NCBI GenBank assembly: GCA_943704415.1 | Contig: CALSCO010002216.1 | Span: forward strand, 1-41,441 | DNA from: Parvularia atlantis | Lineage: Eukaryota; Opisthokonta; Rotosphaerida | Direction: 5' to 3' | DNA: 41,441 bases | Shown: positions 4,883 through 39,400 of the stretch, piece after piece | Layout of the letters: each line of letters begins with the position of its first letter | Position numbering within the stretch: the stretch's first letter is position 1 | Notes under the pieces: generated by a model | Databases searched by the model: none | Seen by the model: only the letters and a program-made list of their open reading frames with translations | What the model was told of the DNA's origin: nothing | Translations under genes and position numbers: made by a program

Positions 4883-4917
4883 CTATGTTTTGGGCTAGGT
4901 TAGAGTACACGCGGGAC

Positions 4918-4935
4918 CGCGCAATCGAGCACACG
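4918..4935 (+). repeat. Left copy of 18-bp flanking direct repeat
   Basis: CGCGCAATCGAGCACACG here and CGTGCAATCGAGCACATG at 6137-6154 match at 16 of 18 bases. Both differences are C against T within CpG. The pair brackets the AT-richer island holding the IS607/Fanzor relic. Confidence 0.6.
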
Positions 4936-5115
4936 GGATGGTGCACGACCGTGGAGACCTTTTTCGCGCTTTATGAAGCAAAGTACCCACTTCTCTCTAT
5001 TTTCTCTTTTCCGTCTGCGCACTCTGCTCCAGTGAGCGACTCCGCTTCGTTTGCCCTTGCACAAAATGTTTGCAATTCGGCTTTACAGGTGCGTATTGTC
5101 ATCTCTCGTCATCGT

Positions 5116-5196
5116 CTTACCTCACCCGCTTACCTCAGCCATCTCGGCCTACGTCAGCCCCGACCCCGCTTACCTCAGCCATCTCGGCCTACGTCA
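5116..5196 (+). repeat. 40-bp tandem repeat upstream of the element promoter
   Basis: A 32-base block at 5125-5156 recurs exactly at 5165-5196, a period of 40 bp. It contains TTACCTCAGCCATCTCGG. A shorter third echo, CTTACCTCA, starts at 5116. There are only two full copies, so this is not a CRISPR array. Confidence 0.8.
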
Positions 5197-5280
5197 CCCA
5201 CCGCCCAGTCCCCTCTTAAACTGTGCCCCACCCCCTGTGTTGTGTGTCTTCCGTCGCTTACGAACCACGAAGTATTACAG

Positions 5281-5288
5281 TATAAAAG
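5281..5288 (+). promoter_or_regulatory. TATA box of the mobile element
   Basis: TATAAAAG lies 62-69 bp before the ATG at 5350. It is the only clear TATA box I noticed in the window and sits inside the AT-richer island, so it probably belongs to the element. Confidence 0.55.
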
Positions 5289-5349
5289 TGCGCGCCTTGT
5301 GTCTTTCCAACCATTATGAACCATTATTATGCTATTCTGATCTGCAAAC

Positions 5350-5496
5350 ATGTCTGCATCAACGACCACACACGTGTTCCTATCAGGCAAGGAGATCCGC
5401 AAGCGCTATGGGGTCTCCAATACGACACTACAACGGTGGCACCGCCTCGGCAACTTGGGCCGTCACGCTCCCGCTCGAAGTGAAGCCCGTGCCTGA
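5350..5496 (+). pseudogene. IS607 resolvase (TnpA) N-terminal HTH fragment
   Basis: The ATG at 5350 opens a 48-codon frame. It contains SGKEIRKRYGVSNTTLQRWH, a MerR/excisionase-like helix-turn-helix typical of the start of IS607-family serine recombinases. The catalytic serine-recombinase domain is absent: after about 37 codons the similarity stops, and the frame closes within the start of the TnpB-like segment. The upstream TATA box and AT-rich leader fit this as the element's original first gene. It could instead be a stand-alone HTH, but the neighbouring TnpB-like segment makes the IS607 reading likelier. Confidence 0.65.
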
Positions 5497-6117
5497 GCAC
5501 CTGCGCAACCCTAACGGCGTGCCTGAGCGCACGGCTTCAATGGATCCTGGTGTCAGAACCTTCCAGACCATCTTCAGTCCGAACGGGCGCGTCGACACGC
5601 TGTTCCGCCGTCTCGATCGTCTGCAGGACAAGATCGACTCCAAGGACACATGTGCCCGCGAGCGCTACCGCCTCCGCCGCGTCGCCACGCGCATCCGCGA
5701 GCAGATCGAGAACAGGGTCGACGACGTCCACCGCAAGCTCGCAAAGCACCTGGTCGAGAACTTCCCGTCTTTCGAGACGCAGCAGATGGTCAAGAAGAAG
5801 GGCACCAAGAAGCGCGTGATCAACAAGAAGGTCGTCCGCCAGATGCTCACCTGGCGGCACCACGCGTTCAAGCGCCGGCTACTCGACAAGGCACTGGGTG
5901 AAGGTCGTGATCGTCGACGAGTCGTACACCAGCAAAACGTGCGGCTGGTGCCCTCGGCGGCAAGTCGTGCGGCACTGCAGTGTGACGCGACATCAACGGC
6001 GCACGGAACGTCCTATCTCAAGAACCACGAGCACTGCTCGTGATGCGGGGGGAAGCCCCTGAGGCTGCCTCGGGCCCGGAGAAAGGTGCCACCAAGGACG
6101 ACTCGGCTCCACAGTGA
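5480..6117 (+). pseudogene. Fanzor/TnpB-like nuclease remnant
   Basis: From about 5480 an open frame carries the C-terminal half of a TnpB-family nuclease. RuvC-I motif MDPGVRTFQTIFSPNGR (catalytic Asp) is followed by a helical linker, a FETQQMV segment that aligns with the RuvC-II Glu region, and MLTWRHHAFKRRLL. The zinc-finger start DESYTSKTCGWC lies in a second frame. RuvC-III RDINGARN at about 5987-6010 lies in a third, which then stays open to a stop at 6115-6117. Only part of the zinc finger remains, and the wedge/recognition N-terminal half is missing. TnpB and Fanzor cut DNA guided by an RNA from the element's 3' end; this copy should be inactive. Confidence 0.75.
6043..6117 (+). ncRNA. 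Candidate guide-RNA (omega-RNA-like) scaffold relic
   Basis: In TnpB/Fanzor elements the guide RNA overlaps the 3' end of the nuclease gene. Here that stretch can fold: CCTGAGG at 6058-6064 pairs with CCTCGGG at 6068-6074 over a 3-base loop, with one G-U pair. A competing GGGG/CCCC hairpin is possible at 6048-6059. The position is right, but transcription and function are not shown. Confidence 0.35.
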
Positions 6118-6136
6118 CACAAGGAGTTAAAAAAGG

Positions 6137-6154
6137 CGTGCAATCGAGCACATG
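6137..6154 (+). repeat. Right copy of 18-bp flanking direct repeat
   Basis: CGTGCAATCGAGCACATG is the partner of the copy at 4918-4935. It reads TG at both places where the left copy reads CG. Confidence 0.6.
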
Positions 6155-6168
6155 AAAAGCTAAGGATA

Positions 6169-6177: not shown

Positions 6178-6193
6178 GGAGGAGAACATCTCC

Positions 6194-6277
6194 TGCCCGA
6201 TGACAGAATTGAACTATCGACCTCCTCATTGCCGTCAACTTACTAGTGAGGCGCTCTGCCAGCTGAGCTAATCGGGC
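6194..6277 (-). tRNA. tRNA-Thr (anticodon AGU) with an 11-nt intron
   Basis: All four arms fold: acceptor GCCCGAT/ATCGGGC with discriminator A, D arm GCTC/GAGC, anticodon stem CCTCA/TGAGG and T arm GATAG/CTGTC with loop TTCAATT. The 18-nt anticodon loop is 7 nt plus an 11-nt intron at the canonical 37/38 site (plus-strand 6230-6240). The loop reads CTAGTA before the intron, so the anticodon is AGU (inosine-modified in use) and it serves Thr ACU and ACC codons. Removing the intron leaves a normal 73 nt. Internal A and B boxes are present. It starts 38 bp before the next gene's ATG on the other strand. Confidence 0.93.
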
Positions 6278-6315
6278 ACCGACTCGTAATGGTGTGCCTG
6301 ACGCTCATAGTTGCG

Positions 6316-36450: not shown

Positions 36451-39400
36451 ATGCCCATCGGTCCCGGTCCCGACGACCCGCTCGGGCCCATCTGGGACGC
36501 CACCGACTGGGCCGCGACCGCGCTCGGCCCGGTCTGCGGCTGGTCGCCCGCGCTCGTCCACGCCGCCGGCACGGTCCTGCACATGCCCATGCCCGCCGCG
36601 CTCGTCTGGGGGCGGCACTGCGCGACCATCTTCAACCGGCACTACGCGCACTGCCTCGGCCGGCGTCGCCCGTCCACGCTCGGCCTGCGCTGTGAATAGT
36701 GCCCGCGCGCGCCGGTCGCCGCTGACAGAGACGCGCGCAATGGCAGTCAGCCTCGTCTGGCCGACAATGGCGCAGACGCTCGCGCGCGAGCTCGACGGCG
36801 CGCTCGAGGGCCGCGGCGCGCAGCTGTGCGACGTGCGCGTGGCGGTCGAGCACGACGGCAGCACCGAGGAGGCCTTTGCCACCCTCAGCGTCTCGCCCAT
36901 CTTCGGCCGCGCTGGCAAGTCGCCCGATGGCGCGCTGGTCCTGGTGCGCCCGCGCCGCACGCCGCGCCCTCGCGGGAGCTGCGCTCTGAGAGACGGCGCC
37001 GCACCGCGCAGCACATTGACACGACCGCGCGCATCGTGCACGAGCGCCGCCTGTGCGTGCTCAAGGATATCAGCGCGTGCGTCGCCGGCTGCGAGCGCGT
37101 GAGCGACGCCTGCGAGCGCCTCCAGCGCACCATCGCCGAGCACCCGGCCGCGCTGCCCCTGGTTGCGCTGTACCTGCACGGCCTCCGCCCAAACAAGCAA
37201 GACCGCGAGAAGGCACGGCGGCCGCCCCGTGCCGAGGCGCGCCTGGCCCCGCTCACGCGTGCGGCCGCAGTTGTCGCTCCACGGCGCCGTCGCGCATTCG
37301 GTCGACGCCAAGACGCTGCTAGAGGACCAGATCCCGCTGCACGGCGAGCTGACATCGTTCGCGAGCCGCTGCGTGCGTGACGCCTACCTCGACAACTTCG
37401 TCGCCGTGCATGAGATCGGCGACCACATGCCGGGCTTGACCGGTGCGCGCGCGCCCTGCACAGGTGGGCCGTTCAACGAGCCCGTGCGGCACTTTGTCGT
37501 GCTCGCGCTCGCGTCCGACACCCTCCCCGGCGTGATGCTGCTCGGCCTCAACCCGGCGCGCCCCAACGACCGCAGCTACAAGGAGTTCCTCTTTGCGCTC
37601 ACCCAGGCTGTGGCCAACGCGCTTGACAGCGTGCGCCTGTACGAGCACCAGTGTCGGCGCAGCTCGGTGCGCGCGCCGCTGCCACTGTGCGCGCGTGCGT
37701 GTGCTCATGGCCGTGGCGGCAGGCGCTGCAAGAGATGCACGCGTCGCGCGCCACGTTCCTCGAGAACCTGTCGCACGAGCTGCGCACGCCGCTCACGCTC
37801 ATCCTCAGCCCGCTCGACGACCTGCTCACGCTCGAGATGAGCGACGACCAGCGCCATCTGCTCCGCCTCGTCCACCGCAACGCCTTCCGGCTCTCGCGCC
37901 TCGTCGACACCCTTCTCAACCTCAGCAGCGTCGAGGCCGGGCGCCTCCGCACCCAGTTCCGTCCGACCCGCCTCGGTGCGCTCACCTGCGACTACGTCAG
38001 CGCGTTCCGCTCGGCGATCGAGAGCGCCGGCCTGCGCCTGACCGTGCACGTCGACCCGGCCGTGGACGCGCTCTGGGACCGCGCGGACGAGAGCAGGCTG
38101 CCGTACGTGGACGTGGACCACTGGGAGCACATCGTCAGCAACCTGCTGTCCAACGCGCTCAAATTCACCGAGCACGGCGGCATCACCGTCACGCTCCGGC
38201 TCGAGGGCGCCAACAGCACGCACCCGATCGTGCGCCTGAGCGTGGCCGACACGGGCCTCGGCATCTCGACCGACGACCTCGAGCACGTCTTTGAACGCTT
38301 CTTCCGCGTCCGCGCCGTCACGGGCAGCGTCGTCCGGCGCTCGGCCGTCCAGGGCACGGGCATCGGCCTGGCCCTCACGCGCGAGCTCGTCAAGCTGCAC
38401 GGCGGCGTCATCTCGGCCCACAGCCGCGTCGGCGTCGGCTCCAACTTTGTCGTCACCATCCCGCTCGGCCGGGCGCACCTCGCGGCCAACAGCGTCCTGC
38501 AGTCGCCCTGTGTCTCGCCCACGCTCGCGGCGGCGCACCTCGCGGGCACGGTCAGCGGCGACGACAGCAGCGAGGGCGAGATCGAGTCGCCGTCGCACTC
38601 GTCGAGCGACACGTGCCAGAGCGACACGACCGCGTGCGTGCTCATCGTCGACGACGACCGCGACATGCGCAAGGTGCCGCCCTTCCGCGCACGCCGATCC
38701 CACGGGCACTCACTTGTGCGTGCGCGCCCGCAGTACGTCGCCCGCCTGTTGCGCAAGCACAGCATGCGTGTGCTCACGGCCAGGAGCATCCAAGAGGCGA
38801 TGCAGCTGCTCCACGCCAACACGGTCGACCTCGTCCTGACCGACGTGATCCTGCCGGGCGCGGACGGGCTCGAGCTCGTGCGAGCGCTCCGCGCGGACCC
38901 GCGCTGGCACCTTGTCCCGATCATCATCCTGTCGGCGCGCGCCGGCAAGGACGCGCAGTGTGAGGGCCTCGCGGCGGGCGCGGACGACTACCTGCTCAAG
39001 CCGTTTGTGCCCAAGGTGCGCGCGTGTGGCAGCGGCGCCAGCGGCTGCTGACGCCGCGGTGCAGGTGCTCCTGGCCCGCGCGACGTCGCAGCTGGCCGCG
39101 GGCCGCGCCCGCATGGACCTCGAGCGCCAGATGCACGCGCGCGCACACGAGCTTGCCGCGACCGAGCTCCGCTTCCAGTCGCTGGTGGAGATGTGCCCCG
39201 CCGGCATCGTGCTGCTCGAGCTCCGGCAGGATCTGGTGCGTCACTCTGCGCCGCTGCGGGTGCGCGAGACAGGCCCGCTGATCCGCGTGTGCGCGCCGCG
39301 CGCAGCGGCGCCAGATTGTCTTTTGCAACGAACGCTTCACGGAGCTGACGGGCTACAGCGATGCGGAGTGGGTGCGCGGCATCAGCGCGCGCGACATCGA

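Follow-up and report, generated by a model that had tools for sequence, protein, structure and literature searches.

Remnants of an IS607-family transposon with a predicted Fanzor2 nuclease in the genome of Parvularia atlantis

Introduction

Which element left the AT-richer island in the window, i.e., the whole stretch of 41,441 nucleotides of Parvularia atlantis DNA analyzed here, does it have relatives in the same genome, and how did it reach its site? IS607-like elements with Fanzor2 genes occur in eukaryotes and giant viruses; Bao and Jurka (2013, PMC3627910) describe ACa-1, ACa-2, CRv-1 and ISvMimi. For its insertion IS607 itself requires GG and hardly anything more (PMC4058570; PMC6188088), the nuclease motif of IS200/605 TnpB is the insertion site of the transposase (PMC11870625), and the TAM of Fz2 from Naegleria lovaniensis was measured as 5'-CCG (Saito et al., 2023, PMC10432273).

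Very probably the island is what breakage and internal deletion have left of an IS607-family transposon copy, and it encodes parts of TnpA and Fanzor2. It belongs to a family with dozens of copies, whose members likely entered this eukaryotic genome through a CG crossover within ACCG^T.

The window copy and its surroundings

The relic, an IS607-family transposon encoding a Fanzor2 remnant, extends from 4952 to 6136 and is bounded by CG at 4950-4951 and CG at 6137-6138. The original prediction had drawn it from 4936 to 6154; these limits had to be narrowed, and 5097-5279 was recognized as a separate nested repeat. The AT-richness of the island was described correctly (GC 0.58-0.59 vs about 0.70 around it). 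Its neighbors, supposedly two host genes, are a FUT8 exon (PF19745, E 7.3e-23) and a tRNA-Tyr gene (6193-6278, minus strand). The individual parts are:

4916..4933, plus strand: near copy of the predicted target, ACCG + C + GCAATCGAGCACA (direct repeat D6; putative target copy)
4948..4951, plus strand: left junction ACCG, AC being target flank and CG the putative crossover dinucleotide; predicted TAM (41 left ends compared)
4952..6136, plus strand: relic body including the nested repeat, 1185 bp (ends set by comparison with other copies)
5093..5096, plus strand: GTAT, the left one of the two 4-bp target duplicates which flank the nested repeat (other copies uninterrupted here)
5097..5279, plus strand: nested 183-bp MITE-like repeat (copies elsewhere in the genome)
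5280..5283, plus strand: GTAT, second copy of this duplication (other copies uninterrupted here)
5281..5288, plus strand: TATAAAAG, resembling a TATA box, about 60 bp before the ATG (from sequence; putative promoter)
5350..5496, plus strand: start of TnpA, a 48-codon frame with an HTH of the IS607/MerR type which ends soon past the deletion junction (relatives reach the serine-recombinase domain)
5453..5454, plus strand: deletion junction from TnpA (HTH) to the middle of TnpB (common to copy C141; the TnpB protein match begins here)
5454..5899, plus strand: Fanzor/TnpB fragment around RuvC-I, through FETQQM and further, with small losses (PF01385, NF040570 and P0002 match)
5898..6059, plus strand: shifted-frame stretch containing the alternative RuvC-II glutamate (5919-5921) and, from 5940, CGWC, the first zinc-finger pair (PF07282, E 2.2e-4)
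5986..6117, plus strand: RuvC-III stretch RDINGARN in a third frame (preceding zinc-finger part missing compared with other copies)
6018..6136, plus strand: predicted guide-RNA (reRNA) scaffold and right end (fold of copy C113; putative function)
6137..6138, plus strand: right CG, putative crossover dinucleotide (right ends compared)
6139..6158, plus strand: right flank, the predicted guide segment of the window copy

Around the relic a repeat is apparent. The stretch 4916..4933 closely resembles ACCG joined to the start of the right flank and lies 32 bp upstream of the site which was used. In the window copy this left-side repeat and the right flank share 13 bases, vs 4-6 in five other complete copies. 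A target duplication was considered and rejected, given the 18-base offset on the left and at most 6 bases between the flanks of those five copies. A 32-bp tandem duplication which predates the insertion explains the repeat: aligning 4916-4933 with 4948-4951 plus 6139-6152 yields ACCG, then C or T, then GCAATCGAGCACA. The upstream unit of this duplication would be a TAM-flanked near match to the window copy's own predicted guide.

Protein remnants of TnpA and Fanzor2

DPGVRTF is located at 5543-5563 in the frame of 5474, the DPG of RuvC-I being 5543-5551, and FETQQM follows downstream in the same frame. E-SYTSKT-CGWC begins at 5919 in the frame of 5898, and RDINGARN at 5986 in the third frame. 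This is the order DPGVRTF, FETQQM, YTSKTCGWC, RDINGARN which the original prediction had read, and profile matches place the motifs beyond chance. PF01385 (OrfB_IS605) matches with E 1.7e-7, over the model's cut-off; NF040570 (guided_TnpB, E 1.8e-10) and PF07282 (E 2.2e-4) match below theirs.

According to Yoon et al. (2023, PMC10711439), the Fanzor fingerprint is defined by the DPG together with a glutamate located six residues ahead of the first cysteine of the zinc finger. The window has both, i.e., the DPG and an E at 5919 with a C at 5940, which is a spacing of six residues. CGWC and RDINGARN are in different frames and sequence between them is missing; the C4 zinc finger and the RD are complete in the metagenome protein P0001. 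P0001 is the closest protein relative, with 82% identity over 63% of the query among 60 relatives listed from 231 candidates scored. It is encoded on an 862-bp contig and has a TnpA HTH fused in frame to the C-terminal half of a Fanzor2, 222 aa without a stop. The window fragment is 53% identical to P0002. Among solved structures the TnpB-like mimivirus protein L79 (9b0l) is the best relative of the fragment as well as of the profile; the single-sequence match is weak (E 0.013), that to the profile of 16 rows has E 2.4e-49.

The HTH, which had been proposed as the start of an IS607 resolvase, by itself matches weakly: the best Pfam match has E 0.0073, MerR has E 0.013, and every one of them is below cut-off. 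The assignment to an IS607 TnpA comes from the relatives, because these continue into the catalytic domain (NF033518, PF00239). Judged by its sequence, the window copy thus retains parts of TnpA and of Fanzor2, a predicted nuclease guided by RNA.

That the copy is truncated and frame-broken was read correctly: a deletion joins HTH and TnpB, and the Fanzor part is in three frames. This HTH-to-mid-TnpB junction is common to C141; therefore the window copy is a derivative which has moved or has been copied at least once. The relic is further broken by the nested repeat and by losses at the right end.

The 183-bp MITE-like repeat begins with TGTCATC and ends with TTACA. It is found in the window and in C574, C581, C423, C24, C135, C92 and C334, and 4-bp flanking repeats are seen in some copies, i.e., GTAT (window), AAGT (C581) and CGGT (C135). 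It sits in several IS607 copies and also occurs alone in the genome. In the window the TATA-like TATAAAAG is directly 3' of it.

A family of copies in the genome

A DNA search of 16.25 Mb in 616 contigs gave at least 66 matching pieces, 40 of 121 candidates having been scored. The left-end word GAGACCTTTTCGCGCTTTAT and the right-end word CACTTTTGTAAGAGGCG occur exactly 36 times each; the reversed controls gave 0 in both cases. From the same 16.25-Mb assembly 41 left and 43 right ends were compared, for which the exact words supplied 15 and 20, respectively; C49, C323 and C522, with altered right ends, were excluded from the right-end count. Both ends are present on six contigs (C533, C141, C339, C67, C346, C198), and so the insertions number 43 to 78. 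Contig ends cut off many of the pieces, which is expected where an assembler meets recent repeats. The left ends differ by a mean of 3.4% substitutions over about 135 bp (253 pairs). This eukaryote has dozens of IS607/Fanzor2 insertions, and they are fairly young.

TnpA fragments match NF033518 in 14 places, with a best E of 1.6e-16 and none over cut-off; copies C440, C55, C66 and C67 are among them. The serine-recombinase domain PF00239 is over cut-off in 4 places. A serine-recombinase TnpA with an N-terminal HTH is found in the family of copies; the window copy alone keeps the HTH only. Matches to the TnpB relative P0002 are present in 29 places, none near full length. C334 has an N-terminal part with a long leader and the nested repeat inside. 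C520, and C415 with one change, run from the HTH into the start MPPKRKKDPDDG; from its sequence this is perhaps a Fanzor N-terminus with a nuclear signal.

The 41 left and 43 right ends, the serine-recombinase fragments and the eukaryotic contig bear out that this lineage has hosted IS607/Fanzor elements. The expectation of intact copies elsewhere did not hold in this assembly. All 14 TnpA-profile matches and all 29 TnpB-relative matches are partial, and an intact TnpA or Fanzor gene was not found. Since contigs break inside the elements and many copies end at contig ends, intact copies may nonetheless exist.

Tree and host contig

A quick tree of 102 rows was computed, for which 86 loci were fetched; 55 had a recognizable TnpB frame and 40 of these were used. 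The window row fills 34% of the tree columns. It pairs with P0001 (support 100), and both are inside a 30-row set (SH-aLRT 99) which also contains metagenome proteins of unknown host and is separate from the 37 bacterial rows used. Of the viral sequences, the 3 included in the tree cluster with cyanobacterial rows, away from the window. A search with a single protein for close viral relatives gave none, and an alignment-based search gave 6 viral loci, 3 of them in the tree. Two of the 120 relatives listed from a profile search bear EukProt labels, both being outside the tree. A second TnpB of this genome, on C26, also belongs to the 30-row set, where it joins P0011 (support 94) on another branch.

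Further TnpB/Fanzor remnants are L043 (C26:56072-56646) and L001 (C566:12314-12448). The C26 remnant has almost no DNA likeness to the IS607/Fanzor2 family of the window.

The eukaryotic domains encoded by the contig of the window are FUT8, SNF8/EAP30 (ESCRT-II), a chondroitin N-acetylgalactosaminyltransferase domain and CTLH. No listed protein exceeds 52% identity with its SNF8 (120 of 151 listed), and the best named matches among those listed are from Mortierella-type fungi (45-51%). At window positions 37627-39048 of the same eukaryotic contig a single frame encodes a histidine kinase together with a response-regulator domain, and a frame with a PAS domain follows downstream.

Ends of the copies and the target motif

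Ahead of GAGACC the left ends read, from position -6 to -2, A in 33, C in 38, C in 34, G in 35 and T in 34 of 41 cases, and the left flank at -7 and further is near random. ACCGTR is exact in 28 of the 41. The right ends finish with GGCG, and the next base is T in 31, C in 8, A in 4 and G in 0 of 43; this T is preferred with p 4.6e-17 against T = 0.148, and later bases are near random. In the six complete copies the left T is constant, while the first base on the right is T, T, A, C, C and C. It is for this reason that the putative crossover is placed between CG and T. A crossover at CG in ACCG^T predicts that AC comes from the target, that CG is shared, and that the element contributes the left T and the target the right one. 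From the edges of the copies the preferred landing site is likely ACCG, then T.

In the six copies with both ends no target duplication is present, the end of one flank and the start of the other being without overlap. An inverted repeat between the ends is absent, with 9 of 30 positions alike when inverted. Twelve left flanks were tested for empty sites and none was found; all 10 extra matches in this test belong to a repeat adjacent to a single insertion. Since no empty site was found, ACCG^T is proposed from the copies themselves. Among 30 loci scanned a tRNA was present at one, the window's own, which gives no sign of tRNA targeting. GG as crossover was rejected: A or G precedes GAGACC on the left and the right ends finish with CG. 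A crossover within GAG (GAGACC, AAGAGG) was judged unlikely, as it needs GCG/GGCG as target in nearly every copy.

The repeat adjacent to a single insertion is in the left flank of C440, and in C602, C276, C182, C305 and others. It is about 60-74 bp long and has ten further genome matches of 81-91% identity; according to ARAGORN it is not a tRNA in the C440 locus.

Guide RNA and gene-less derivatives

The hairpin CACGAGCACTGCTCGTG is kept in the window copy at 6026-6042; the terminal stem partner GGCACTTTT is missing. The right end is without sequence present in other copies, including GGCACTTTTGTAAGA, the start of which pairs with AAAGGTGCC in the C113 fold. The energy of this fold is not significant (z -0.80; 44 of 200 shuffles are at least as stable), and the guide-RNA reading is consequently based on where the region lies and on its resemblance to IS607 reRNAs.

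A junction which removes the promoter and the start of the HTH is common to C207, C276 and C346 and is the same in C198. Another, from TnpA to the right end, is common to C198, C346 and several others. With a length of about 515 bp, C198 and C346 have no intact gene, yet both ends and the guide-RNA region are kept. If Fanzor2 were made anywhere, copies of this type would supply guides in trans.

Deletions and other damage

With a search minimum of 6 bp, 32 junction rows were obtained, of which 26 distinct deletions remained after removing six (redundant, an insertion, or an internal repeat). They measure 8 to 327 bp; 14 are of 8-12 bp and 8 of exactly 10 bp. Microhomology is slightly in excess (mean 1.19 vs 0.75, p 0.045). 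Small indels are common in the copies. In a four-gamete test all four combinations were present in 5 of 10 character pairs; this suggests exchange between copies, with many rows being contig ends, where the assembler may mix copies.

The nested-repeat copy C135 (L075; one of 7 aligned) has an 11-bp deletion, and short insertions are present in others. Because this unrelated repeat has such a deletion too, no link between deletions and Fanzor is claimed, and the deletions as an IS607-specific signature were dropped. The cluster at 8-12 bp may be a repair habit of this genome.

Discussion

A coherent course of events can be proposed. TnpA, a serine recombinase, would excise the element as a circle, the CG of which would be joined to the one in ACCGT with no duplication of the target. 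Transcription of the right end would continue into the flank and give a guide RNA. Fanzor2 with this guide RNA would then recognize ACCG together with the matching flank, i.e., the vacated site, and cut, and repair after the cut would copy the element back. Copies which lack genes but retain both ends and the guide-RNA region would need proteins supplied from elsewhere. Neither moving nor cutting is expected of the window copy itself, since its TnpA stops after the HTH, its Fanzor2 remnant is in three frames and its predicted scaffold is without the last stem. We know of no test of the role of Fanzor2 for its transposon in a natural host. The putative transposase site and the published Fanzor2 motif coincide, as a nuclease which recaptures vacated sites would require.

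ACa-1, ACa-2, CRv-1 and ISvMimi are alike in having a serine-recombinase TnpA and a Fanzor2-type TnpB, and in lacking terminal inverted repeats and target duplications (PMC3627910). Compared by this description, the copies reported here differ in being deleted or broken, in left ends which point to an ACCG^T site and in that some derivatives consist of ends and guide-RNA region only. Fz2 of Naegleria lovaniensis, likewise a Fanzor2, has a TAM, CCG, which equals the left-end motif here (comparison of motifs); it is an active enzyme, whereas the window copy is a relic (PMC10432273). Bacterial IS607 and cyanobacterial 'pro-Fanzor' elements share the TnpA and TnpB families and a short identical core at both ends. 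This core is GG in IS607 (PMC6188088) and CTG at both ends of the Microcoleus-type cyanobacterial elements compared; in the present family it would be CG. Among the papers listed, largely non-subscription ones, titles and abstract openings gave no CG crossover or ACCG target for a eukaryotic IS607 element. The ACCG^T pattern with its putative CG crossover is new from the comparison of ends and fits the CCG of Naegleria Fanzor2.

The 13 of 41 left ends which deviate from ACCGTR leave room for ACCG being decayed element sequence. The transposon would be the same and ACCGTR its own left terminus, with no CG crossover, no implied TAM and only the preference for T on the right. We consider this unlikely. 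Descent would indeed give the 28 matching ends, small indels are common in the copies, and C605, C32 and C337 keep ACCG displaced by a short insertion. However, C381, C142, C520, C470 and C66 have changed several of the six bases right beside an unchanged 20-base end, CG is common to both ends, the right T varies independently of the left one, and CCG is the TAM of Naegleria Fz2 (PMC10432273). Somewhat less probable still is that the internal deletions are scars of interrupted repair, i.e., that Fanzor cut the vacated donor site and the copy-back stopped half-way. The preserved ends with lost interiors, the slight excess of microhomology (1.19 vs 0.75, p 0.045) and the failed four-gamete test in 5 of 10 pairs are compatible with such scars. 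Yet the nested repeat, although unrelated, has short insertions and an 11-bp deletion as well, so the pattern may be genome-wide; several junctions common to copies are explained by movement of derivatives, and assembly may mix copies in the many rows which are contig ends.

Two further possibilities concern the nature of the locus as such. Domestication of a Fanzor or of the TnpA HTH as a host gene, kept for a host function, is very improbable. P0001, with its HTH joined in frame to a TnpB end over 222 aa, demonstrates that such fusions can be open; in the window, however, the parts are in different frames, the Fanzor part in three, other copies carry different breaks and no frame is conserved among the copies compared. 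Bacterial contamination, or a bacterial IS607 misassembled into the contig, is hardly credible, and in this respect the original prediction is upheld. The relatives do include IS607 TnpBs of cyanobacteria and other bacteria, and the GC of the element is lower than that of the host. Against contamination are the FUT8, SNF8/EAP30 and CTLH domains encoded by this very contig, the presence of family pieces on dozens of others, the nested repeat which also occurs alone in this genome, and the separate set in the tree.

Returning to a broken IS607/Fanzor2 copy as the preferred reading, one may speculate, with considerable reservation, that the gene-less derivatives of about 515 bp are a dispersed guide-RNA library. 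Each would read its own flank, together they would supply many different guides to Fanzor2 enzymes made elsewhere, and one such nuclease would simultaneously guard dozens of insertion sites. The target of the transposase, ACCG^T, and the motif of the nuclease, CCG, would thereby coincide in a eukaryote. Dozens of IS607/Fanzor2 insertions in one eukaryote are natural sites to read, and gene-less derivatives with a guide-RNA region allow a direct test of guide RNAs.

Possible traces of other insertions were noticed in the copies. Fillers of 3-5 bases which make or contain CTGA or TCAG were seen by eye at unrelated places in C346, C67, C141, C300, C337 and C198 (L078, L047, L051, L071, L035, L190, respectively); they are perhaps footprints of another, excised transposon. 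The TnpB part of L054 (C357) contains an insertion of about 60 bp, an almost perfect palindrome (AATATATAAAGGGGAGGATACGC...) which may be a second MITE-like element.
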